Source: Neolewinella aurantiaca (GTDB taxonomy: Bacteria > Bacteroidota > Bacteroidia > Chitinophagales > Saprospiraceae). Taken from it: a stretch of DNA of 64,000 nt. The stretch spans positions 62,001 through 126,000 of the forward strand of contig NZ_VOXD01000003.1 in assembly GCF_008014675.1 (NCBI RefSeq), given 5' to 3'. The notes beneath the pieces were generated by a model, which was not told the origin of the DNA, did no database searches, and worked only from the letters and a program-made list of their open reading frames with translations. A program made the translations under genes and the position numbers. Positions 1,824-12,936 of the stretch are shown in pieces (within the stretch, counting starts at the first letter, position 1; every line of letters begins with the position of its first letter).

Positions 1824-2924
1824 TTAATAGCTGTGCTCATCCAGCTGGACCTTACCCCAAAAGGTCTTGTACACAAAAGCCGTGTAGCCCACCGCCAGCG
1901 GGCCACCAATTGCCACAAAGATGAGCATGATGCTGATGGACTTATCGGAAGCTACTCCGTTATACACCGTAATGCTGTTACCCGCTCCGCTGGTGTCCAG
2001 AATGATGGTAGGGTAGAGCTCTATTGCTACTGTGATCAGTAACAGCCCAACGGTGATTGAGCTGAAGACGAACGCTTTTAGGTAGTTGCGCTTACTGATT
2101 TGCCGGGGAATGTTAGCGATGGCCAGGATCGCTAAAACGGGAACTCCGAAGAGAGCTACGTTGTCCTTCACTCCGTCAGACATGTGCGGGATGTACAAAA
2201 GAGTATACAGCGTAGTGATGATGAAGAGAATGATGAAGGCAATGATTGACCTTTGGAGCAAGTGATTGACCTTAGTGAACAGTTTGTCTTCTGTTTTCAT
2301 GGACAAGTAGATCGCGCCGTGCATCATAAACAGTGCCAGCGTAGTGAAGCCGACCAGAATTGCGAAGGGGTTGAGGAAACTCAACCAGCTGCCGGTAAAC
2401 TCGTAATTATCGTCGAGCGGCATGCCCAGCAGAACGTTGCCGAGGACAACACCCAGAAGAAATGCGAGCATAGTGCTGGAGAAGCTGTAGCTGACATCCC
2501 ACATTTGCCGCCACCATTTCATGGGTTCTTTACTTCTGAACTCGATACTGATGGCCCGGAAGATGAGCATGAAGAGGAACAGCATCAGCGGGATGTACAT
2601 CGCTGAAAAGAGGCTGCCATACACGACCGGGAAACCGGCAAAGAGGGTTCCTCCCCCAATTACCAGCCACACTTCGTTGCCGTCCCAAACGGGTCCGACG
2701 GCGTTGAGGGCAATTCGGCGACTTTTCTCCTTTCTGAAAAACAGGTGCCAGGCACCTGCACCGAGATCGAACCCGTCCAGAATACCGTAGCCCGTAAACA
2801 CCGCGCCTACCACCATGAACCAGAGGGTAGGGTAGTCGATACCGGCAACGGTGGAATGGCCGGAGACAGGGTCTGTGCCGCAGGCGGTAAGCAGAAGGAA
2901 TGATAGTAAAATCAGGTACTTCAT
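1824..2924 (-). CDS. cydB: Cytochrome bd oxidase subunit II with a lipoprotein-like N-terminus
   Basis: Subunit II of the quinol-oxidising cytochrome bd terminal oxidase in the inner membrane. The hallmark TM1 sequence GYGILDGFDLGAG, the conserved GPVWDGNEVWL and about eight hydrophobic segments are visible. The ATG at 2924 is preferred because GGAGG lies 11 bases upstream, rare in this phylum; the TTG two codons earlier is less likely. From this start the protein begins MKYLILLSFLLLTACGTDP, a convincing type II signal peptide with lipobox LTAC. It precedes TM1 by about 15 residues, whereas canonical CydB starts almost directly at TM1. Downstream of cydA by 81 bp, so the two are presumably co-transcribed. 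Whether the extra N-terminus is cleaved and lipidated is unknown. Confidence 0.95.
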   Translation of the reverse strand: MKYLILLSFLLLTACGTDPVSGHSTVAGIDYPTLWFMVVGAVFTGYGILDGFDLGAGAWHLFFRKEKSRRIALNAVGPVWDGNEVWLVIGGGTLFAGFPVVYGSLFSAMYIPLMLFLFMLIFRAISIEFRSKEPMKWWRQMWDVSYSFSSTMLAFLLGVVLGNVLLGMPLDDNYEFTGSWLSFLNPFAILVGFTTLALFMMHGAIYLSMKTEDKLFTKVNHLLQRSIIAFIILFIITTLYTLLYIPHMSDGVKDNVALFGVPVLAILAIANIPRQISKRNYLKAFVFSSITVGLLLITVAIELYPTIILDTSGAGNSITVYNGVASDKSISIMLIFVAIGGPLAVGYTAFVYKTFWGKVQLDEHSY

Positions 2925-2935
2925 GTTCAATTTTT

Positions 2936-3005: not shown

Positions 3006-4388
3006 CTAAATCTGGTCGCCGGCAACGCGGGCGATGTTTTCCTGAAGCGGTCGGTCGTCGATGTCGCTCTCATCGTACGGGCCGTGCTTTATTTTTTTGT
3101 TGAGCAGGTACAGGAACAGGGCCAGCAGAATAACGTAGATGATGGTGAAGCCGATCAGCGAGAACAAGACCTGGTTTGCGGTTACCACGTTGGAGAGGGC
3201 ATCGGAGGTGCGGAGCAAACCGTACACCACCCAGGGTTGGCGGCCCATCTCGGCGGCATACCAGCCGAACTGGTTGGCCATTTGCGGAAGGACAACGGCG
3301 AAGACGAAGGCCCACAGCAACCAGCGTTGCTCAAAGAGGGTGCCCCGCCACCAGTAGAAACAGGCGAGCAGGGTAAGACCGATCAGCGTCATCCCGATGG
3401 CGACCATGAGATGGTAGAACTGGAAAACAGCGTTGACCTGGCCCGGGCGGTCTTCTTCGGGGAAGGCGTTCAGGCCAGTGACGGGGGCGTCGAAGTCTTG
3501 CTCGAGCAGGAAGCCGAGCCCTCCGGGTACCTTGATGCCCGTGGTGGTTTGCGATTCTTTATCGACCCAGCCCATGATGTACATATCGGCGGGGCCTTCG
3601 GCGTCGAAGTGGCCTTCCATTGCGGCCAGTTTGGCGGGTTGGTGCTCAGCTACGTACTCGGCACTGCGGTGACCGGTAAAGAGTTGGCTGAGGGAGAAAA
3701 CAGTCGCAACGGCCAGGGCTATTTTAAAGGCTTTGCGAGACAGGTCGACGTAGCGTCCGCGCAGTAAGTAATAGGCGTGAACACTGAGCACCAGAAAGGC
3801 TCCGGCGAGGAAAGCACCGATCCAGACGTGGGTAAGCCGGTCTACACTGCTGGGGTTGAAAACCATCGCCCAGAAGTCCACGATTTCGGCTTTGGCCTGA
3901 ATGCCCTCTCCAACAATCTTATAACCGGTAGGGGTTTGTTGCCAGCTGTTGGCGACCGTGATCCAGACGGCTGAAAACATTGAGCCCAGGAAAACACCGA
4001 TCGTTGAAATGAAGTGAACCCGAGAGCTGACCCGGTTCCAGCCGAAAAGAAGGATGCCCAGAAAGCCACTCTCCAGAGCGAAAGCGAAGATGCCCTCGGC
4101 AGCCAGTGCGCTACCGAAAATATCACCGACGTAGCGTGAATAAGTGGCCCAGTTGGTACCGAACTCGAACTCCATCACAATGCCGGTAGCGACGCCGATA
4201 CCGAAAGTGAGGGCGAAAATACGCGTCCAGAACCTGGTCATATTCTCGTAGACTTTATTACCTGTGCGGAGGTAAAGGCCCTCCATAATTACCATCAGTA
4301 AGCCCAACCCGATACTCAGGGGCGGGTATATGTAATGGAAAGCTATGGTGAAGGCGAATTGGATTCTTGCTAGAATTTCGACGTCCAT
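3006..4388 (-). CDS. cydA: Cytochrome bd ubiquinol/menaquinol oxidase subunit I
   Basis: Haem-bearing subunit I of cytochrome bd, 460 residues. Likely haem ligands or haem-site acids match the E. coli pattern: H18 (IAFHYIYPP), E99 and E106 ([14 protein letters not shown]), H187 (LTHVWIG) and a methionine near HLMVAIGM. The Q-loop core [10 protein letters not shown], with its conserved lysine and glutamate, is present. The Q-loop is the short type, which accounts for a length below the roughly 520 residues of E. coli CydA. It is followed 81 bp later by cydB. Cytochrome bd oxidases are known to be relatively insensitive to sulfide, which fits the neighbouring sulfide-oxidation genes. No GTGATnnnnATCAC box was found upstream, so it is probably not under the same control as sqr. 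Confidence 0.96.
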
Positions 4389-4707: not shown

Positions 4708-5100
4708 CTATTTCCCCTGAGCCATCGCTGCCTTTTCCGGCCGGAACCCCACAATGAGGTTGAGCCAGAACGCACGCGCAAAGCGAAACCACCAAACGAA
4801 AAATACACCGACGAGTAACATCAACCACCCGAAGGAAGCCGCAAGGCTGAGGTCTAATACCCAGTGCAGGATCATCACGAAGCCCATGATGATGAAGGCG
4901 GAGAAAATGTAGGACATAAACATTGCACCGTAGTAAAAACCCGGTTCCGGATAAAAATTAGCATCACACTTCGGGCAACGCTCGTTCATCTCGAAGGGCT
5001 TATTGAAACTGAATGCTCCGGTGGGAAACATATCTCCCTCGTGGCACTCGGCACATTTGTGGCTGAACATTGCTTCGGCGTCTTTGGTCCATTGTGGCAT
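4708..5100 (-). CDS. DUF983 family zinc-ribbon membrane protein
   Basis: 130 residues from the ATG at 5100. Two CxxC pairs (C16/C19 in CAECHEGD and C42/C45 in CPKCDANF) form a probable metal-binding ribbon. They are followed by the family signature PEPGFYYGAMFMSY and two or three membrane segments. The frame stays open further upstream, but that part overlaps the operator at 5183-5196 and the -7 element at 5152-5159, so the downstream ATG is chosen; this gives a leader of about 45 bases. Function is unknown; DUF983 proteins are often found near respiratory genes. It is divergent from sqr and shares the same operator type, so it probably belongs to the sulfide response. Confidence 0.8.
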   Translation of the reverse strand: MPQWTKDAEAMFSHKCAECHEGDMFPTGAFSFNKPFEMNERCPKCDANFYPEPGFYYGAMFMSYIFSAFIIMGFVMILHWVLDLSLAASFGWLMLLVGVFFVWWFRFARAFWLNLIVGFRPEKAAMAQGK

Positions 5101-5151: not shown

Positions 5152-5196
5152 CAAATATCCAACGCTTTCAGGCACATCGTTTGTGATGTTGATCAC
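5152..5196 (-). promoter_or_regulatory. DUF983 promoter with Crp-type operator
   Basis: The palindrome GTGATgttgATCAC (5183-5196) and, 23 bp away on the minus strand, GATATTTG (5152-5159, one mismatch to TAnnTTTG). The operator centre lies 34 bp from the centre of the -7 box, close to -41. This is one of four promoters in the block with identical spacing. Confidence 0.75.
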
Positions 5197-5267
5197 TTTC
5201 GGCACCTTTATTTTGTTTTACACCACTAAAATAGAAGGGATCAAACAGAAAGGAGAAATCCTCTATT

Positions 5268-5312
5268 GTGATCTTGATCACCGACACCCAGGGGAGAGAA
5301 GAGATAGCTTTG
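5268..5312 (+). promoter_or_regulatory. sqr promoter with Crp-type operator
   Basis: The perfect palindrome GTGATcttgATCAC (5268-5281) is separated by 23 bp from a perfect -7 element TAGCTTTG (5305-5312). Initiation would fall near 5319, about 20 bases before the sqr ATG. This rules out the in-frame GTG at 5268 as a start codon. Confidence 0.8.
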
Positions 5313-5339
5313 AGGCATTCTCACAATAACTTACCGATC

Positions 5340-6587
5340 ATGCACAATCATTATCAGGTACTTATCATCGGCGGCGGATCTGCCGGTATAATGGTAGCCT
5401 CTCAACTAATCGAACAGAAAAAGCAAACCAATGTCGCCATCATCGAACCGGCCGACACCCACTACTACCAACCCGCCTGGACGCTCGTTGGGGCAGGAAC
5501 TTACAATTACGACAAAACTTCCCGCCCGATGGCGGAAGTGATGCCGGAAAAAGCGATCTGGATTCAGGACAGCGCTACCGGTTTCGACCCGGACAACAAT
5601 ACCGTCTTCACCGCGCAAAGCGGTGAGGTCACTTACGATTACCTCGTGGTGGCACCTGGCCTTGCCTACGATCTGGATCTGGTGCCCGGCCTTGGCGAAG
5701 CTTTAGGTCAGGGCGTTGTGTGCAGCAACTACACCGACCCCAGACATACCTGGGAAGTGATTAAAAATTTTAAAGGCGGTACTGCCCTGTTCACCCAGCC
5801 AACCACTCCGATCAAGTGTGGCGGAGCGCCGCAAAAGATCATGTACCTCGCCGAAAGCCACTGGGCTAAGAGTGCGGTCAGTGCCAAGACGGATATAGTG
5901 TTCGCTACCGCAGGCACTATAATTTTCGGAGTTAAACCCATCGCTGAAACGCTGATGGAAGTAGTGAACCGCAAAGACATTAACCTGCGCTTCGGCTACC
6001 AGCTTAAAAAGGTAGACGGACCGAACCGGATTGCCTGGTACGCTTTTGCGGACCATATGAAAGAGCATAACCACAAAGACGTGGAAATCGAAAAAGACGG
6101 TGATCTGACGGGGATTCACTTCGATATGCTCCACACGGCGCCACCATCGGTGGCCCCTGAGTTTGTTCAGACTTCCACCTTAGTGAATCAGGCAGGCTGG
6201 CTGGATGTGAATAAAAACACCCTGCAGCACAGCAATTATAAAAATATCTTTGGCCTGGGAGATGTTGCCGGGCTGCCGACGGCAAAAACGGGAGCGGCGA
6301 TTCGTAAGCAGGTACCGATAGTAGTGGATAATATCGATTTACTCATTAACCATGATCGGATGGGGGCGAAGTCCTACAACGGTTATTCCTCGTGTCCTTT
6401 GGTAACTGACTATGGTAAGATGGTGCTCGCTGAATTCGACTACGAGAATAATTTCACACCAGACCCGAAACTCAGGCAGATGCTGATCAGTGATTCATCT
6501 AAGGAGCACTGGAGATTGTGGATGCTGAAAAAATATATTCTGCCTTATCTCTACTGGAATAAGATGATGAAGGGACTGGATGTGTAA
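5340..6587 (+). CDS. sqr: Sulfide:quinone oxidoreductase (type II-like)
   Basis: A 415-residue FAD enzyme of the inner-membrane face. It oxidises H2S to sulfane sulfur and passes electrons to the quinone pool. The FAD dinucleotide-binding motif is at VLIIGGGSAGI (residues 8-18). Three cysteines at 128 (VVCSNY), 160 (PIKCGGAPQK) and 352 (YSSCPLV) match the spacing of the redox cysteines known in SQR (about 124/156/347 in Aquifex). IFGLGDVAGLPTAKTGAA is the second FAD motif, and the C-terminus carries the usual amphipathic membrane anchor. The ATG at 5340 is chosen because the operator and -7 box occupy the upstream in-frame codons. The product sulfane sulfur would be handled by the PDO-like protein at 8895-10346, and the electrons could be used by the adjacent cytochrome bd. 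Confidence 0.93.
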   Translation: MHNHYQVLIIGGGSAGIMVASQLIEQKKQTNVAIIEPADTHYYQPAWTLVGAGTYNYDKTSRPMAEVMPEKAIWIQDSATGFDPDNNTVFTAQSGEVTYDYLVVAPGLAYDLDLVPGLGEALGQGVVCSNYTDPRHTWEVIKNFKGGTALFTQPTTPIKCGGAPQKIMYLAESHWAKSAVSAKTDIVFATAGTIIFGVKPIAETLMEVVNRKDINLRFGYQLKKVDGPNRIAWYAFADHMKEHNHKDVEIEKDGDLTGIHFDMLHTAPPSVAPEFVQTSTLVNQAGWLDVNKNTLQHSNYKNIFGLGDVAGLPTAKTGAAIRKQVPIVVDNIDLLINHDRMGAKSYNGYSSCPLVTDYGKMVLAEFDYENNFTPDPKLRQMLISDSSKEHWRLWMLKKYILPYLYWNKMMKGLDV

Positions 6588-6682
6588 CTACCCCGGATTT
6601 TAGATACGCTCTAAAATGTAGGCTGTTCTTCCTGAGGAGGATAGTACACCACCGTTTTTGGCCTTCTACGATCGTTGTTTTG

Positions 6683-6783
6683 CTCCCTCTCCTACGGACC
6701 TCCGAAGGAAGCCGCGCAGCGAGCACGAAGTACTGCGCAGCAAAAGGGGCCGGGGTGAGGTTAAGAACGGAGTGAGCAGAACC
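6683..6783. repeat. Dispersed intergenic repeat, family 2, copy 2
   Basis: CCCTCTCC, an inserted palindromic part (TTTTGCT 6679-6685 against AGCAAAA 6749-6755; GCGCAG against CTGCGC) and GGGGTGAGGTTAAGAACGGA. It resembles the copy at 1726-1781. The gap 6588-7029 otherwise holds only the terminator at 6855-6887; a small open frame here is a translation of the repeat. Confidence 0.5.
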
Positions 6784-6854
6784 GTGCAGAAAGCGTTAGG
6801 CCAGCACTCTATCAGAAGGAAAACCCTGGCTCTGAATATGAATAAAAAAAATAA

Positions 6855-6887
6855 AGCGCTCTCTGATCATTAGGATCAGAGAGCGCT
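6855..6887 (-). terminator. Strong hairpin, terminator for the minus strand
   Basis: A 14-bp perfect stem AGCGCTCTCTGATC, loop attag, and its complement. On the minus strand it is followed by TTTATTTTTTTTATT, an excellent U-tract. On the plus strand it lies 270 bp after sqr and lacks a U-tract. No minus-strand gene ends immediately before it, so it may close a small antisense or non-coding transcript, or act bidirectionally for sqr. Confidence 0.7.
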
Positions 6888-7029
6888 GTTGTTCATAATG
6901 TAACTGTCGTAAAGAAGTATATAAGTCGAAAAAAGAACGAAAAACTATAAAGTGTTGTAATATCTTGGTGGCACCGCGAGTGCTACGATGCATGTTTTCA
7001 CAAATGTCTTACCATTTTAGGTTAATATG

Positions 7030-7045
7030 TGTAACCAGGGTTACA
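7030..7045. promoter_or_regulatory. Candidate autoregulatory Crp-family operator
   Basis: The perfect palindrome TGTAACcaggGTTACA ends 8 bases before the ATG at 7054. It keeps Crp/FNR geometry (4-bp spacer between 6-bp arms) but has TGTAA rather than TGTGA half-sites. Its position just ahead of the start codon suggests repression of the regulator gene itself. Confidence 0.55.
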
Positions 7046-7053
7046 TTTATAGA

Positions 7054-7704
7054 ATGAAAATTACTGTTGAGCACCTGAGGCGAAATTTTCCTACCATTCA
7101 GGAGGACCCTTTACTGGAGGATATCGCCAGGCATGGTAAATTTTTCTCCTTTGAAAAAGACGTGACAATCCTCACGAATCAGCAATACATTGACTCTGTA
7201 CCGCTTATCATCAAGGGGGGAGTCAAAGTTGTACGGCACACGGAAGACAACAAGAGCCTTTTTCTTTACTTCCTCAACAAGGGGGAAATGTGTCCCGTTT
7301 CGCTTGTTGCAAGCACTAAGCGTGAGAGGAGTAAGGTTCAGGTGAAAACCGTTGCCCCTACCGAAATCATCTCTTTACCTCCCGAACGGGTGTACTTTTA
7401 TACACGCCGGTTCTCGGGGTGGAACGAATTTACGCTCGAGGCTTTTCGGATGAGGTTTAATGCGGTGCTATCCGCCTACGAAGGCATGGCCTTCGAGCCG
7501 ATGGAAGACCGGGTCATGGCTTACCTGAAAGGGATAAGCTCAATCTGTGAAAATGACTGCCTGTCGATCACGCACGATGAGTTGGCAATCGATCTGGGCG
7601 CATCGCGCGTCGGCATTTCCCGAATCCTGAAACGGCTGGAAAGCAATAATGTCCTGAATCTCGCCCGTGGCGAGATAACGCTGCTCGATCTCCAGTACTC
7701 CTGA
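7054..7704 (+). CDS. Crp/FNR-family transcriptional regulator (first copy)
   Basis: 216 residues: an N-terminal cyclic-nucleotide-binding-like beta barrel (about 20-115), a long dimer helix (about 120-155) and a C-terminal winged helix-turn-helix (HDELAIDLGASRVGISRILKR, about 174-194). The effector loop reads GEMCPVSL, with C80 where CRP has its cAMP-contact segment, so cAMP binding is unlikely. In the recognition helix the CRP pattern RExxxR is changed to RVxxxR. In E. coli CRP, replacing that glutamate is known to change preference at the G of TGTGA, and the palindrome in front of this gene has A there. The start is placed at 7054 because that palindrome lies upstream. It is convergent with the yeeE operon. 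Target genes are unknown. Confidence 0.85.
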   Translation: MKITVEHLRRNFPTIQEDPLLEDIARHGKFFSFEKDVTILTNQQYIDSVPLIIKGGVKVVRHTEDNKSLFLYFLNKGEMCPVSLVASTKRERSKVQVKTVAPTEIISLPPERVYFYTRRFSGWNEFTLEAFRMRFNAVLSAYEGMAFEPMEDRVMAYLKGISSICENDCLSITHDELAIDLGASRVGISRILKRLESNNVLNLARGEITLLDLQYS

Positions 7705-7739
7705 TGTCGGAGTTCTCTCGCACTGCCCGGTAAACAAAA

Positions 7740-7770
7740 CCGTTCTCAATACGACTCGTATTGAGAACGG
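7740..7770. terminator. Terminator between convergent Crp and yeeE genes
   Basis: A 14-bp perfect stem CCGTTCTCAATACG with loop act. On the minus strand it is followed by TTTTGTTT, so it best fits the end of the PDO-yeeE-yeeE operon. It also ends the plus-strand regulator gene 36 bp after its stop. Confidence 0.85.
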
Positions 7771-7799
7771 AATATGAAAGCTAAGCCACAGAAGTCAGA

Positions 7800-8213
7800 T
7801 CAATGCGGCAGGCGGTCCCGAAGGGCCCCGTACACGTACGTACCGAAGGTGGCACTAAGGATCAGTAACCCGATGGACACTATTCCCTGGCCAAGCAGGG
7901 TAAACATAGGGCCGGGGCAGGCTCCGGTAAGGGCCCAGCCCAGACCGAAAATAGTTCCGCCAAAAAGATAGCGCGGAATGCTGAAGTCTTTTGGCTTCAG
8001 GTTCCACTCCTTACCCTCGCTGGTCCGCCAGTTGAAGCGTTTAGAAAGCGCAACGCCAATCACCCCTACAACTACTGCCGTACCGATGATGCCGTACATG
8101 TGAAAGCTTTCGAAGCGGAACATTTCCTGGATGCGGTACCAGGAGATCGCCTCGGATTTGGTCATCACGATACCGAAGAAAGTACCGAGAATCAGGTAGA
8201 CAAAATAACGCAT
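7800..8213 (-). CDS. YeeE/YedE family sulfur transporter, C-terminal half
   Basis: 137 residues with about four membrane segments and the family motif ALTGACPGPMFTLLGQG, whose cysteine is conserved. E. coli YeeE (TsuA) imports thiosulfate through relayed cysteines. Here, as in PmpA/PmpB-type systems, the protein is split in two, and this is the second half. It begins 3 bp after the stop of its partner, so translation is probably coupled. With PDO upstream in the same operon, it likely moves thiosulfate or sulfane sulfur across the inner membrane; direction is unknown. Confidence 0.85.
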   Translation of the reverse strand: MRYFVYLILGTFFGIVMTKSEAISWYRIQEMFRFESFHMYGIIGTAVVVGVIGVALSKRFNWRTSEGKEWNLKPKDFSIPRYLFGGTIFGLGWALTGACPGPMFTLLGQGIVSIGLLILSATFGTYVYGALRDRLPH

Positions 8214-8216
8214 GGC

Positions 8217-8798
8217 TTAGAGTTGAAGGATAAAGGGAAGAATCAGCCAGCTCATAGTGAGCCCACCGATGAAAAAGCCTACTACGGCAATAAGGGATGG
8301 AAGCTGGAGGTTGGAAAGCCCCGTGATTGCGTGGCCACTCGTACAACCACCGGCCCAGCGGGTGCCGAAGCCAATGAGGAAGCCGCCAACCAGCACCACG
8401 ATCAGGCTTTTAAGGGATAGTAAATTGTCAACTCCAAATAACTCCGCTGGAGCAAAAGAGGAAAACCCGGGCGTAGAACCGGGCCGGCTGACGCCAACTT
8501 CGTCTAAATAGCTAAGGGTTGCAGCCGAGAGCTCTACCGGGGCCGGGTTCGGAATAATGTGATATGCGATGAAACCACCCAGAACAGCACCAACGGCAAA
8601 CATCAGGTTCCAGCGTTGGGCCTTCCAGTCGAAGTCAAAGAATTTCACCCGCTTTCCTGCTCCTGCAATACTGCACATCGTGCGCAGGTTGGAGGAAAAC
8701 CCGAACGTCTTGCCGGTGTAGAGCAGGGCGAACATCGTCAGAGCGATCAATAAACCACTCACGGACCAATGCCATGGTCCGGAAATTAAATCATACAT
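8217..8798 (-). CDS. YeeE/YedE family sulfur transporter, N-terminal half
   Basis: 193 residues with about five membrane segments. The diagnostic motif GFGTRWAGGCTSGHAITGL carries the conserved cysteine of the family. Between helices 1 and 2 there is a loop with a further cysteine (RTMCSIAGAGKR). It lies 96 bp after the persulfide dioxygenase-like gene, with no terminator between, and is followed at 3 bp by the second half. The gene order PDO-YeeE-YeeE, with a Crp-type operator in front, points to uptake or export of the sulfane sulfur produced by SQR. The exact substrate is inferred from the family. Confidence 0.87.
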   Translation of the reverse strand: MYDLISGPWHWSVSGLLIALTMFALLYTGKTFGFSSNLRTMCSIAGAGKRVKFFDFDWKAQRWNLMFAVGAVLGGFIAYHIIPNPAPVELSAATLSYLDEVGVSRPGSTPGFSSFAPAELFGVDNLLSLKSLIVVLVGGFLIGFGTRWAGGCTSGHAITGLSNLQLPSLIAVVGFFIGGLTMSWLILPFILQL

Positions 8799-8894
8799 GT
8801 AATGTTGTTTATAGTATTTTGAGCCTTACGTAAGGGTATTGGTGCAGGGTCCCTTGTACCTGGTATGAAAGGACAAGGAACCCCGACCAAAAGT

Positions 8895-10346
8895 TTATAC
8901 GACTGCCTCTACGGCTGCATCAATAATCTCCTGAGACATCTTGGTCGGACAAAGGAAATCGGATTTGGGGAGATCAGTTTCTTTCACTGCTCCCCATCCT
9001 CCCTGTACATTGACAAGGTGGCTGAAACCCCGTGCCCGCAGGATCGAAGCGGCAATCAACGATCGGTAACCACTACCACACTGAAGGTAGTAGGTCTCGT
9101 CGCGGTCGAGTTTTGCGAAATTGTTGTTGATGTAGTCCAGGGGGAAGTTTTCAGCGGCAAGGAGGTGCTCGGACAGGAACTCCGAAGGAGTGCGGGTGTC
9201 GAGGATATGGTTCACCTCTTCGTTCTTAACGCGGCCGGCGAATTCTTCGGCGGTGATGTCCTCGATACGGTCTGTTTCACGGCCGGAATCAGCCCACGCT
9301 TTCAGGCCACCATCCAGAAATCCGAGGGTATTGTCGTAACCGACCCGGGCAAGACGGGTGACTACTTCCTCTTCGCGCCCTTCGGGCGCGACGATGAGAA
9401 TGGGCTGCTTGATGTCGATGATCAGTGCTCCGACCCAGGGGGCGAACTGGCCGTCGATGCCGATAAAGATGCTGTTGGGGATGTGCATCTTGGCAAACTC
9501 GTAGCGGTCGCGTGTATCCAGCACCAGCGCTTCTTCGCTTTCTGCGATGGCCTCGAAGGCTTCGGGAGTGAGCGGACGATCACCGTGGCTGAGCACTTCG
9601 CTGAAGCTTTCGTAGCCGCCTTTGTTCATCATGGCGTTCTTCGCGAAATACTGTGGCGCCGGGGTCAGGCCGGCGGTTACTTCCCTGATGAACTCCTCGC
9701 GGGTCATATCTGCGCGCAGGGCGTAGTTGAGCTTTTTTTGATCTCCCAGCAGCCCGAAGGTTTCCTTGCTAAGGTTCTTACCGCAGGCGGAGCCTGCGCC
9801 ATGAGCGGGATACACGATTACATCGTCGGCCAGCGGCATGATCTTTTCGCGCAGACTGTCAAAAAGGTGGCCGGCAAGGTCTTCTTTGGTCACTTCGCCC
9901 TGTTTGATGGCAAGATCGGGCCGGCCTACATCGCCGAGGAACAAAGTGTCTCCGGTAAAAATTGCGTAGTCTTTACCGCTGGCGTCTTTAAGCAGAAAAG
10001 TGCTGCTTTCCATAGTGTGGCCGGGGGTATGAAGTACGGTCATGGTTACATCGCCAAGCTTGAGTACTTCGCCGTCTTTTGCGGAGTAGATATCGTAGGC
10101 TGGCTCGGCCATTGGGCCGTAAACGATGGTGGCTCCGGTGGCTTTTGCCAGGTCGAGGTGGCCGGATACAAAGTCGGCGTGGAAGTGGCTTTCGAAGATA
10201 TACTTCAGCTTAGCGCCTGTTTCTTCCAGCTTATCGAGGTAAGGCTTGGTTTCCCGCAGCGGATCGATGATGATGGCTTCGCCAGCGCTTTCGATGTAGT
10301 AAGCACCCTGAGCGAGGCAACCGGTATAAATTTGTTCGACTTTCAT
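8895..10346 (-). CDS. Persulfide dioxygenase-like MBL-fold protein with two rhodanese domains
   Basis: 483 residues. The MBL domain (1-240) has ESHFHADFVSGH (H54, H56, D58, H63), TPGH (H110), TGDTLFLGD (D133) and YPAHG (H182). These match the iron site of ETHE1-type persulfide dioxygenases, except that the usual last H of HxHxDH is F59, which is not an iron ligand in ETHE1. Rhodanese domain 1 (about 262-355) has alanine (A320) where the active-site cysteine would be and is probably catalytically dead. Domain 2 (about 370-460) has the active loop CGSGYRS with C423. The known chemistry of such fusions is oxidation of glutathione- or other persulfide to sulfite and sulfur transfer to thiosulfate. 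First gene of an operon with the two yeeE halves, under the operator at 10400-10413. Cytoplasmic: no signal peptide. Confidence 0.88.
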   Translation of the reverse strand: MKVEQIYTGCLAQGAYYIESAGEAIIIDPLRETKPYLDKLEETGAKLKYIFESHFHADFVSGHLDLAKATGATIVYGPMAEPAYDIYSAKDGEVLKLGDVTMTVLHTPGHTMESSTFLLKDASGKDYAIFTGDTLFLGDVGRPDLAIKQGEVTKEDLAGHLFDSLREKIMPLADDVIVYPAHGAGSACGKNLSKETFGLLGDQKKLNYALRADMTREEFIREVTAGLTPAPQYFAKNAMMNKGGYESFSEVLSHGDRPLTPEAFEAIAESEEALVLDTRDRYEFAKMHIPNSIFIGIDGQFAPWVGALIIDIKQPILIVAPEGREEEVVTRLARVGYDNTLGFLDGGLKAWADSGRETDRIEDITAEEFAGRVKNEEVNHILDTRTPSEFLSEHLLAAENFPLDYINNNFAKLDRDETYYLQCGSGYRSLIAASILRARGFSHLVNVQGGWGAVKETDLPKSDFLCPTKMSQEIIDAAVEAVV

Positions 10347-10368
10347 AATTGTATGTTTTTGTTTGATG

Positions 10369-10413
10369 CAAAGATGGGAGAGGTACAGGGCGGCCTACGG
10401 TGATCGAGGTCAC
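10369..10413 (-). promoter_or_regulatory. PDO-yeeE operon promoter with Crp-type operator
   Basis: GTGATcgagGTCAC (10400-10413, one mismatch to a perfect palindrome) and, 23 bp away on the minus strand, CATCTTTG (10369-10376, one mismatch to TAnnTTTG). Spacing is identical to the sqr, DUF983 and sulP promoters. Confidence 0.7.
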
Positions 10414-10440
10414 TTAAGCCCTGATTTTTCAACTTTTTTT

Positions 10441-10489
10441 TGCACCTGCGTACGCGCCATATGTTCTTTTTGGCGCGCACGCAGGTGCA
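10441..10489. repeat. GC-rich 18-bp element, inverted pair
   Basis: TGCACCTGCGTACGCGCC (10441-10458) and the inverse copy GGCGCGCACGCAGGTGCA (10472-10489) form an 18-bp stem with one mismatch and a 13-base loop. It lies between the end of sulP and the PDO promoter. On the minus strand the stem is followed by a run of A, so it is not a classical intrinsic terminator of sulP. It is the clearest paired copy of the dispersed family. Confidence 0.85.
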
Positions 10490-10502
10490 CAATCGGGTTG
10501 AA

Positions 10503-12221
10503 TTAATGAGCAACGAAGGAGGCATTCGTTTGCAGCGCCTGCGGAGCCTGCTGATCAGCTGCGAGCGCCGCTGCCACGTCGAGATAGAAGTTCTGGTCTC
10601 CGATCTTCTCCCGCAGGCCGCTGCGGTGCAGTGCATCCCTGGCCGGGCCGATGAAACCGGCAAAGCGAACCTGAATTCCGTCGCGCGCTAAATCCTGAAG
10701 GAATATCCCCAGGTCGTACAATGCGGTACTGTCGATGCGGTGAATACCTTCTGCTTTCAGAATGAGTACCGAGACATCGTCCCGCCTGCTTTTAATTATC
10801 GCTTTGATCTGTTGTTGGAAGTAGGTAAGGTTACCGAAGTAGAGCGCTCCGTCGAACCGGACAATCAAAACTCCGGGGATTTCCCGGACTTCTTCGCCGA
10901 ACCGGTCGATGTTACGGAAATTGTCTGTACCGGGAATCCGGCCCAGGACAGCGAGGTGGGGGCGCATGCTGCGGTAGACATGGACGCCCAGAGATAAGGC
11001 GACGCCCAGCCCTATGCCGAGTTGAATACCCAAAAACAGCGTGCCCAAAAAGGTGATGGTGAGCAACCAAAAGTCTGCCCGGTCGAGGTGCCACAGTTTC
11101 TTCGCCTCTCCGAAATCAATAAGCTTAAAGACGGCAACCATGATCAACGACGCCAGGATGGCCTGGGGAAGATAGTAGAACAGCGGCGTCAGGAACAGAA
11201 GCGTCAGCCCAATCAAAAGGGCGCTGATGATGCCGGCGAGTGGCGTTTTAGCTCCCGCCTGATCGTTTACTGCAGTGCGCGAAAAACCTCCGGTGACGGG
11301 GTAGCCGGCGGCGGTGCCCGCCGCCAGGTTGGCCGCGCCCAGAGCCAGCAATTCGCGGTTCGCGTCCAGATCGTAATCGCGGTGCCGGTTGCGCACCGCC
11401 TTGGCCACCGCAATACTTTCCATGAAACCGACCAACGCGATGGTCAGCGCCGCAGACCACAGCTGCGATACATCCGACCACCCAAAAGAAGGGACCGACA
11501 GGGGCGGAAACCCGCCGGGAATGGTTCCTACAATCTTAACGCCCTGGTCCGTAAGGCCCAGGCCCATTACCACCAGAATGCCGGCCACCACCGCAACGAG
11601 CGGACCGGGAATAACTTTGCTTAATTTCTTTACCCCGATGATGACGGCCATCCCGCCCAGCCCGATTAACAGGGTAGGGAGGTTGATCCTGCTGAAGTTC
11701 TGCGCTACCGACCAGACGATGTCGTGTACATAACTACTTCTGGCCGTCTCGATGCCCAGCAGGTGCTTCAACTGACTCGCTCCGATGATGATGGCTGCCG
11801 CTGAGGTGAAACCACTGATGATGGGGCGGGAGAGGAGATCCACCAAAAAGCCCAGTCGCATGACTCCTGCTGCAAGCTGGACAACACCCACCATGAGCGC
11901 AAGCAGGGCCGCCAGGGCAATGTAATTGTCGGCACCGACCACCGTAATGGCCCCGAGGCTGGCTGCGGTAAGCAGCGAATCCATCGCTACCGGCCCAACC
12001 GCCAGCTGCCGTGAGGTGCCCAGGATCGCGTAGGCGATGAGCGGCAACGTTGCGGCGTAAAGCCCGTGAATTGGAGGCAGGCCGGCCAGCATGGCGTAGG
12101 CCATGCCCTGAGGGATGAGCATGATGCCAACGGTGATGCCTGCGGCGATGTCGCCGCGTAACCACTCCGGGCGGTAGTTTCTGAGCCAGACAGGAAGAAG
12201 ATTGGAAAGAAAAGCTTGCAT
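10503..12221 (-). CDS. SulP-family inorganic anion transporter with STAS domain
   Basis: 572 residues: the SulP/SLC26 membrane domain with the signature QGMAYAMLAGLPPIHGLYAATLP near the N-terminus and about 12-14 hydrophobic segments, then a cytoplasmic STAS domain (about 440-550) with RIDSTALYDLG around residue 495. SulP proteins carry sulfate, bicarbonate or related anions. Its own promoter carries the same operator as sqr and PDO, so in this setting it may export sulfate or sulfite made from sulfide, or exchange it; that is inferred. It lies downstream of the Crp-family gene and has an independent promoter overlapping that gene's stop codon. Confidence 0.9.
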   Translation of the reverse strand: MQAFLSNLLPVWLRNYRPEWLRGDIAAGITVGIMLIPQGMAYAMLAGLPPIHGLYAATLPLIAYAILGTSRQLAVGPVAMDSLLTAASLGAITVVGADNYIALAALLALMVGVVQLAAGVMRLGFLVDLLSRPIISGFTSAAAIIIGASQLKHLLGIETARSSYVHDIVWSVAQNFSRINLPTLLIGLGGMAVIIGVKKLSKVIPGPLVAVVAGILVVMGLGLTDQGVKIVGTIPGGFPPLSVPSFGWSDVSQLWSAALTIALVGFMESIAVAKAVRNRHRDYDLDANRELLALGAANLAAGTAAGYPVTGGFSRTAVNDQAGAKTPLAGIISALLIGLTLLFLTPLFYYLPQAILASLIMVAVFKLIDFGEAKKLWHLDRADFWLLTITFLGTLFLGIQLGIGLGVALSLGVHVYRSMRPHLAVLGRIPGTDNFRNIDRFGEEVREIPGVLIVRFDGALYFGNLTYFQQQIKAIIKSRRDDVSVLILKAEGIHRIDSTALYDLGIFLQDLARDGIQVRFAGFIGPARDALHRSGLREKIGDQNFYLDVAAALAADQQAPQALQTNASFVAH

Positions 12222-12241
12222 TGTATCGGGTTACTGTGACG

Positions 12242-12286
12242 CAAAGGTCAATGCAGCCAGGCCCGGTACTTGGTGATCATGATCAC
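12242..12286 (-). promoter_or_regulatory. sulP promoter with Crp-type operator
   Basis: The perfect palindrome GTGATcatgATCAC (12273-12286) overlaps the stop codon of the upstream regulator gene. 23 bp away on the minus strand lies GACCTTTG (12242-12249, one mismatch to TAnnTTTG). Initiation would be near 12235, leaving a leader of about 14 bases. Confidence 0.75.
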
Positions 12287-12936
12287 ACTAAGGTTTTAAT
12301 GATGTTAATGCGGTTGCGCCCCAGTTTTACGAACCCTTGTTTCTCCATAGACTTAAGGAGACGGGAAATGGCTTCGCGGCTGACGTTGAGATCGTCGGCA
12401 ATGTGCTGGTGAGTCGCGTACACCACCGCTTCGTCGTTGATCACCGAACTGTTGTGGAGGTACTGCATCAGGCGCTGATCGAGGCGGCTGAAAGAAATCT
12501 GATCGATGGTGTTCATCATCTCAATCAGTCGCTGGTCGTAGGCTCGGAGTACGAAATTTTTCCAGCTTTTATACTTCATCATCCATTCGTCCAGTTTCTC
12601 GCGGGGCAGGCCGAGCACGATGGTGGGCGCCTCGGCTACGGCACGGATTTCACTGGTTTTTTCGGACATGCAGCAGGTGAAGGTCATCGTGCAACTCTCT
12701 CCTCGGGAGAGGTAGTAGAGGAAGAGTTCCGAGCCATCGGGACCACGACGGGTGATCTTGAGGCTGCCGGAAATGATGAGCGGAAGCATGCGGACGTAAC
12801 CACCATAGTCCATGATGATCTCTCCCTCCAAAAAGCTGTGTAGTCTGCCTGCCTTAGCAATTTCTTCCTGTAGCTGGGGCTCTACAAAATCGGGGAAATA
12901 TTGATGTACCTGAGAAATGGTAAGTTGATCGGCCAT
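12283..12936 (-). CDS. Crp/FNR-family regulator, probable activator of the sulfide-oxidation genes
   Basis: 217 residues: sensory beta barrel (about 15-115), dimer helix (about 115-150) and winged helix-turn-helix (THQHIADDLNVSREAISRLLK, 175-195). The recognition helix keeps the R-E-x-x-x-R residues that in E. coli CRP read GTGA, and four operators with GTGAT half-sites occur in this block. The region that in CRP holds the cAMP phosphate (GELxxx...RSA) is replaced by GESCTMTFTCCMSEKTSEI, with C82, C88 and C89. This suggests sensing through thiols, persulfides or a metal rather than cAMP. It lies upstream of sulP. That it controls sqr, DUF983, PDO and sulP as a class II activator is an inference from helix and site matching. 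Confidence 0.88.
   Translation of the reverse strand: MADQLTISQVHQYFPDFVEPQLQEEIAKAGRLHSFLEGEIIMDYGGYVRMLPLIISGSLKITRRGPDGSELFLYYLSRGESCTMTFTCCMSEKTSEIRAVAEAPTIVLGLPREKLDEWMMKYKSWKNFVLRAYDQRLIEMMNTIDQISFSRLDQRLMQYLHNSSVINDEAVVYATHQHIADDLNVSREAISRLLKSMEKQGFVKLGRNRINIIKTLV

Follow-up and report, generated by a model that had tools for sequence, protein, structure and literature searches.

At class II promoters of Escherichia coli the activator CRP reads TGTGA-type half-sites with an R-E-xxx-R recognition helix, and the operator is centred at about -41.5. Here we describe a predicted regulon of similar design in Neolewinella aurantiaca, found in a stretch of 64,000 nucleotides of contig NZ_VOXD01000003.1 (the whole 64-kb stretch is called the window), where four promoters in a block of sulfur genes share one operator. 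The most likely regulator is CrpB, a Crp/Fnr-family protein encoded in the block. CrpB resembles E. coli CRP in fold, recognition helix, half-site and operator position, and differs from it in the loss of two cyclic AMP (cAMP) contacts, in another -7 element and in a regulon of sulfur genes. Among sulfide regulators, FisR is a sigma-54-type activator, SqrR/BigR are ArsR proteins and CstR is a CsoR protein; all belong to protein families other than that of CrpB. As is proposed for CrpB, their signal is sulfide or sulfane sulfur and they govern genes for sulfide oxidation (PMC8148161, PMC9774590).

Two Crp-type systems stand closer by family. HcpR and HcpR2 share with CrpB the CRP/FNR family, an GTAACnnnnGTTAC motif and a residue 181 that tracks the operator base; in HcpR2 this residue is Pro and the target is hcp (PMC1274295), whereas CrpB and its paralogue CrpA have Glu or Val and are linked to sulfur genes. 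Crp of Bacteroides (BT4338) is likewise a Crp-family regulator of Bacteroidota with a computed regulon, but its motif is wwwTATGTTnTAnAACATAwww and its targets are sugar utilisation genes (PMC3878776). Among the open-access PMC papers listed in our searches, and in passages of PMC8148161, PMC12531629, PMC9723704, PMC11253593, PMC12345210, PMC9774590, PMC3878776, PMC1274295, PMC13370916 and PMC6955866, no sulfide regulon under Crp control had been described for Bacteroidota; the sulfide regulators met there were of other protein families and from other phyla only.

Four operators at a common distance from the -7 box

A sequence-only reading of the window had placed the same operator before DUF983, sqr, the PDO-yeeE operon and sulP, each time exactly 23 bp from a TAnnTTTG-like element. 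Re-extraction of the sequence confirmed all four operators and boxes, their strands and the 23 bp between them:

5183..5196, minus strand, predicted CrpB operator of the DUF983(-cydAB) promoter, GTGATCAACATCAC (read directly and re-extracted)
5152..5159, minus strand, -7 box GATATTTG of the DUF983 promoter, 23 bp from the operator
5268..5281, plus strand, predicted CrpB operator of the sqr promoter, GTGATCTTGATCAC
5305..5312, plus strand, -7 box TAGCTTTG of the sqr promoter, 23 bp from the operator
10400..10413, minus strand, predicted CrpB operator of the PDO-yeeE operon, GTGACCTCGATCAC, one mismatch, with a GTGAC half
10369..10376, minus strand, -7 box CATCTTTG of the PDO-yeeE operon, 23 bp from the operator
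12273..12286, minus strand, predicted CrpB operator of the sulP promoter, GTGATCATGATCAC
12242..12249, minus strand, -7 box GACCTTTG of the sulP promoter, 23 bp from the operator

A TAnnTTTG-like element is thus present at all four promoters, but the complete consensus is found only at sqr; the other three boxes retain the A and TTTG. GTGAC halves like that of the PDO operator also occur in relatives, and the operator of sulP runs into the stop codon of crpB, the next gene upstream.

The window contains exactly four GTGAY-N4-RTCAC palindromes, each with an NANNTTTG box at +23. In 300 dinucleotide shuffles of the window the composite of this palindrome, 22 or 23 bp and NANNTTTG averaged 0.003 copies and never exceeded 1, against the four observed, and the earlier judgement that four matching spacings are very unlikely by chance therefore stands. 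The operator by itself is less telling (5 window matches with up to one mismatch against 1.39 expected; one shuffle in 100 did as well). Without mismatch it is found 8 times in the 6-Mb genome, 3 of them within this block, and no box was found at 21-24 bp from the other 5; exact operator, 23 bp and NNNNTTTG together give 3 genome matches, all in this block. Allowing one mismatch in this pattern adds five more, namely the PDO promoter, a rhodanese site on contig C38, and matches on C18, C29 and C35. With the degenerate composite pattern we obtained five sites in the genome and none with reversed-pattern controls. These five precede DUF983-cydAB, sqr, PDO, sulP and the rhodanese gene, whose start codon lies 21 bp past the box (site at position 13450 of C38).

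The spacing was then surveyed in relatives by recording NANNTTTG boxes 5-59 bp downstream of operators, with no distance imposed. For GTGAY operators 68 of 79 boxes fell at 22 or 23 bp (55 at 22, 13 at 23), and for the related GTAAC operators 53 of 79 fell at 22 bp; no other distance had more than 4 boxes. A fixed 23-bp spacing as a rule is ruled out, since 22 bp is usual among relatives and 23 bp is the minority form. The Bacteroidota -7 box spans -12 to -5 (PMC9723704). Computed from the box position, the operator centre lies at -41.5 for a spacing of 22 bp and at -42.5 for 23 bp. The peak at 22-23 bp from the predicted -7 box agrees with the position near -41.5 and the fixed spacing of a class II activator.

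CrpB, its proposed operator code and its cysteines

The genes of the block and their Pfam or TIGRFAM matches are as follows:

12283..12936, minus strand, crpB, Crp/Fnr-family regulator and proposed activator (PF00027 and PF13545; helix SREAISR; Cys82/88/89)
10503..12221, minus strand, sulP, SulP-family anion transporter with STAS domain (PF00916, TIGR00815)
8895..10346, minus strand, PDO, protein of persulfide dioxygenase type that joins a metallo-beta-lactamase fold to two rhodanese stretches (PF00753, PF00581 in two stretches)
8217..8798, minus strand, yeeE-like half transporter, Sulf_transp (PF04143)
7800..8213, minus strand, yeeE-like half transporter, Sulf_transp/DUF6691 (PF04143, PF20398)
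5340..6587, plus strand, sqr, sulfide:quinone oxidoreductase-like flavoprotein (PF07992)
4708..5100, minus strand, DUF983 protein (PF06170)
3006..4388, minus strand, cydA, probable regulon member downstream of DUF983 on the same strand (PF01654)
1824..2930, minus strand, cydB (PF02322)
7054..7704, plus strand, crpA, CrpB paralogue with helix SRVGISR, predicted reader of GTAAC sites and not of the four operators

Directly upstream of sulP lies crpB, and crpA is found between sqr and yeeE. The best NCBIfam match of sqr is type III SQR, with a score of 211 bits where the cut-off is 525. Cytochrome bd (cydAB) is probably expressed from the DUF983 promoter as well. Autoregulation of crpB was considered and rejected: the 400 bp upstream of the gene contain no GTGAT-type match with up to 3 mismatches, and the single GTAAC-type match, with 2 mismatches, is an imperfect palindrome.

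CrpB has the two domains of the CRP/FNR superfamily, a cyclic nucleotide-binding-like domain (PF00027, 34.5 bits) and a Crp-type helix-turn-helix (PF13545, 39.1 bits), both above cut-off, and its predicted structure (pLDDT 92.5) matches the CRP fold in the PDB. Aligned with E. coli CRP (SRETVGR with SREAISR), it keeps the helix contacts R180, E181 and R185. CRP contacts cAMP through E72, R82 and S83; in CrpB these are Met, Thr and a retained Ser. CrpB does not belong to cAMP-CRP proper, with two cAMP contacts lost and 38 bits for NF008732 against a cut-off of 266, nor to FNR, with 19 bits for NF008365 against 228 and cysteines only at 82, 88 and 89, none of them N-terminal.

Relatives of CrpB were taken from named genomes (the best 80 of 568 confirmed loci, found by two peptide patterns, one including Cys82 and Cys88) and from 296 sampled genomes of the phylum, 100 of which had a match. 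Raw counts include a few duplicates (L140 and L226 have identical CrpB proteins, L246 and L313 are the same gene) because some genomes are present as two records, and Fisher p-values on these data take rows to be independent, although related sequences are not. Among 14 proteins with a cyclic nucleotide-binding domain found in the N. aurantiaca genome, only CrpB has an R-E-xxx-R helix; CrpA and one third relative have R-V-xxx-R. A de novo scan near 203 Crp genes presumed no operator sequence, only a 5+4+5 palindrome at 21-23 bp from a -7 box, and it returned GTGAT (15) and GTGAC (4) for Glu helices and GTAAC (49) for Val helices; any other half-site among the six commonest of a class occurred once. 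A scan with relaxed halves covered 199 Crp genes (the 203 rows minus L138, the same gene as the window's crpA, and L158, L243 and L302, helix outside the E/V pattern) and gave 30 Glu/GTGAY pairs, 51 Val/GTAAC pairs, one Glu locus with both operator types, which also holds a Val-type paralogue, and 117 genes with none. A tree was made from the 81 rows that have a single operator type (78 distinct sequences), after the helix columns had been taken out of the alignment; on it there were five helix changes and five operator changes, and the independent helix/operator pairs on starred branches agreed in 3 of 3 cases.

Arg180, Glu181 and Arg185 of E. coli CRP contact TGTGA, with Glu181 meeting the cytosine opposite the second G (PMC11253593), and a correlation between residue 181 and the motif has been reported for CRP/FNR regulators (PMC1274295). 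The pairing found here fits both. The Glu/Val operator code is therefore already known in kind, and it is the regulon that appears new. Because of the recognition helix, its covariation with the operator and the co-occurrence described below, we assign the four sites to CrpB (12283-12936) as the most likely regulator and not to CrpA, and consider it highly probable that CrpB binds them. At locus L313 (genome G146) both Crp types stand together as a natural two-code pair: the Val-type gene has a GTAAC site, and the Glu-type gene has a GTGAC site with GTAAC sites further on. Locus L208, on a contig labelled Candidatus Rokubacteria, is a flavobacterial-type CrpB-GTAAC locus with a Flavobacteriaceae record as its tree partner; the contig is probably misbinned.

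The cysteines point to a possible signal. Cys82 is present in 202 of 202 aligned rows and the Cys82/88/89 triad in 125; the triad is commoner near sulfur genes, for 82 of the 108 members that have one within 6 kb carry it, against 43 of the 94 that do not. In the structural model Cys88 and Cys89 lie in a short helix (83-91) at the site of the cAMP phosphate in CRP, and Cys82 just before it. The lost cAMP contacts and the three cysteines at this place suggest persulfide sensing by CrpB.

The predicted regulon in relatives and competing explanations

The GTGAY and GTAAC sets of loci were chosen for carrying sqr or crpB; a scan of 21 congeneric genomes was not so chosen. CrpB (E <= 1e-50) is encoded in 16 of these genomes, and sites were found in the same 16 and in one other. 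All but one of the 65 sites lie in CrpB genomes, while the five CrpB-less genomes have 0, 0, 0, 0 and 1. Four of those five encode a PDO homologue (the fifth genome has a completeness of 55%); it is therefore the regulator, and not the enzyme, that the site goes with. Genus-wide, 42 of 65 sites precede genes for PDO (10), SulP (9), YeeE (7), rhodanese (7), DUF983/cydA (7) or SQR (2), and 8 are in tandem arrays; target names come from Pfam for 20 open reading frames (ORFs) and from likeness to those or to window genes for the rest. The order site-DUF983-cydAB on one strand is shared by the window with G002, G006, G011 and G018; G005 has a site at DUF983 and a cydAB pair on another contig with its own site.

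The 42 GTGAY loci gave 54 sites, against 0 with reversed halves and 2 with the other operator type. A site stands before SulP in 11 of 16 cases, PDO in 11/19, SQR in 5/10, DUF983 in 5/17 and YeeE in 3/12, with a background of 11/427 for other ORFs. The GTAAC set gave 86 sites against 1 in each of the two controls: PDO 18/38, YeeE 6/10, SulP 3/10, SQR 2/8, cydA 1/10 and crpB 1/49, against 42/646 other ORFs, among which TauE/SafE-like exporters, rhodaneses and thioredoxins were recognised by eye. The relatives thus repeat the operator, its spacing and the target genes, and comparison across genomes brings out the predicted sites, their fixed spacing, the targets, the co-occurrence with crpB and the helix covariation. 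A single Crp-family regulon for sulfide handling, as the sequence-only reading had proposed, is supported by these comparisons; its membership of four promoters holds but was drawn too narrowly, since a rhodanese promoter and probably cytochrome bd belong to it and sqr is a variable member.

CrpB class II activation of a sulfide-handling regulon is, with good confidence, the best explanation of the whole. The Arg-Glu-x-x-x-Arg helix of CrpB would read GTGAY half-sites, and the dimer would sit 22-23 bp upstream of the Bacteroidota -7 box at a class II activator site. CrpB would turn on the oxidation and movement of sulfide-derived sulfur (SQR, PDO-rhodanese, rhodaneses, the YeeE pair and SulP) and would also drive cytochrome bd via DUF983-cydAB; induction by sulfide or persulfide may act via Cys82/88/89, which lie where CRP has its cAMP site. 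From the comparative evidence we infer direct binding, activation rather than repression, and sulfide or persulfide induction. Activation is quite probable, control by a sulfur signal of some kind more likely than not, and direct persulfide sensing by the cysteines a tentative proposal with rather less than even weight.

Several observations weigh against this explanation. More than half of the Crp genes had no site within 700 bp (Glu type, 59 of 90; Val type, 58 of 109), and just three independent covariation pairs are well supported (sign test p 0.25). In GTGAY loci a site stands directly before cydA in 0 of 8 cases and before crpB in 2 of 35, and sqr is without a site in 5 of 10, for example in G002, G011 and G015. 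The genome's second PDO homologue (C18:2585) lies outside its five sites. Co-transcription of DUF983 and cydA is not certain because a gap of about 320 bp with inverted repeats separates them in the window. Cysteine conservation is partly a selection effect, one search pattern having contained Cys82 and Cys88: outside the 80 pattern-found loci Cys82 is kept in 121 of 121 rows, but the full triad in just 45 of 121. For this reason we slightly lowered our already tentative estimate of direct persulfide sensing. Finally, 15 of 65 genus sites precede genes with no obvious sulfur role (DoxX 3, Usp 2, DUF202 2, FA_hydroxylase 2, and one each of CBS, peroxiredoxin, ferritin-like, DUF4440, L-PSP and no family); this minority partly resembles genes of general stress, and the signal may be broader.

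These last targets bear on an alternative in which the same sites and CrpB serve a general redox, oxygen or nitric oxide sensor of the FNR or HcpR kind, the sulfur genes being one branch of a microaerobic or stress response. Cytochrome bd, the product of the DUF983-cydAB target, is a microaerobic oxidase, and it also tolerates sulfide. The Usp, CBS, peroxiredoxin, ferritin-like and DUF202 sites favour this alternative, as does the GTAACnnnnGTTAC motif predicted for HcpR2 upstream of hcp (PMC1274295). Against it, most sites (42 of 65) belong to sulfur or DUF983/cyd genes, and the three cysteines, none N-terminal, leave CrpB without an FNR-type cluster motif. This genome has no prismane (hcp) match (relatives were not searched for hcp), which also speaks against identifying CrpB as HcpR. 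We regard a general sensor as unlikely but still deserving of attention. A repressor released by its signal is more doubtful: several known sulfide regulators do repress (CstR, SqrR and BigR; PMC8148161), but the sharp 22-23 bp spacing marks a class II activator position, and repression would need no single spacing.

The identity of the protein and the origin of the sites leave less room. CrpA (7054-7704) is another member of the family encoded within the block, but its R-V-xxx-R helix is paired with GTAAC in 51 of 51 Val-type genes having a site, crpA itself has a GTAAC site immediately upstream, and across congeners the sites track CrpB. Helix and site type rule it out as the regulator, and its binding to the four sites is very improbable. 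REP-like repeats are common in the window and could have argued for a repeated element; the shuffles, and 65 sites against 1 reversed-pattern control over the 21 genomes, rule out chance or repeat origin, to which we give a negligible probability. CrpB activation remains our preferred account; the comparative data show a real conserved regulon with a well-supported regulator, and a sulfide-related function is likely.

Putative small transcripts, repeats and significance

The window also has a predicted CrpA-type promoter upstream of crpA:

7031..7044, minus strand, predicted CrpA-type operator GTAACCCTGGTTAC, 22 bp from box GACATTTG
7001..7008, minus strand, box GACATTTG of this promoter, 22 bp from GTAACCCTGGTTAC
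6842..7000, minus strand, putative small transcript ending at a strong terminator hairpin (about 6855-6887) and T run

The terminator stands about 149 nt after the box, and the longest ORF starting within 200 nt after it has 65 codons. L136 and L088 have a small membrane-protein gene at the place equivalent to 6842-7044, which may be either a small RNA or a remnant of such a gene. Tandem arrays were seen at L371 4117-5287 (G001:C44, running off the contig) and at L369, about 3950-4370 (G020:C50). Each unit consists of a GTGAT operator, 22 bp, a TAnnTTTG box, about 100-120 nt and a terminator-like hairpin with a T run, most have no sizeable ORF, and they are apparently arrays of Crp-activated small RNAs; an Rfam search of the arrays gave no match at gathering score. 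Such a site is immediately preceded by a second CrpB copy in G020 and also in G001, there at the end of a different contig (C7); a SET-domain gene comes after, and we infer a link between C44 and C7. A REP-like dispersed repeat, GCACCTGCGTNCGCGCC, occurs 12 times in the window when up to 2 mismatches are allowed, where 0.04 would be expected (4558, 10442, 10472, 17148, 25200, 26448, 29947, 42481, 46331, 59099, 59407 and 62665), including one inverted pair at 10442-10488.

As a speculation that we think rather unlikely in its entirety, a widespread Crp subfamily with these cysteines may serve Bacteroidota as an activator of their own that senses persulfide and switches on sulfide detoxification. 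What was once the cAMP pocket would have become a Cys82/Cys88/Cys89 sensor, sub-lineages would be insulated by the Glu/Val operator code, with paralogues in one genome reading GTGAY and GTAAC separately, and some species would carry tandem arrays of Crp-activated small RNAs in the regulon. CrpA and CrpB in one genome offer a natural case of co-evolution between recognition helix and operator. With a candidate regulator and a readable operator, the regulon can be predicted across many genomes of Bacteroidota and put to the test in Lewinella-type strains that grow in culture.

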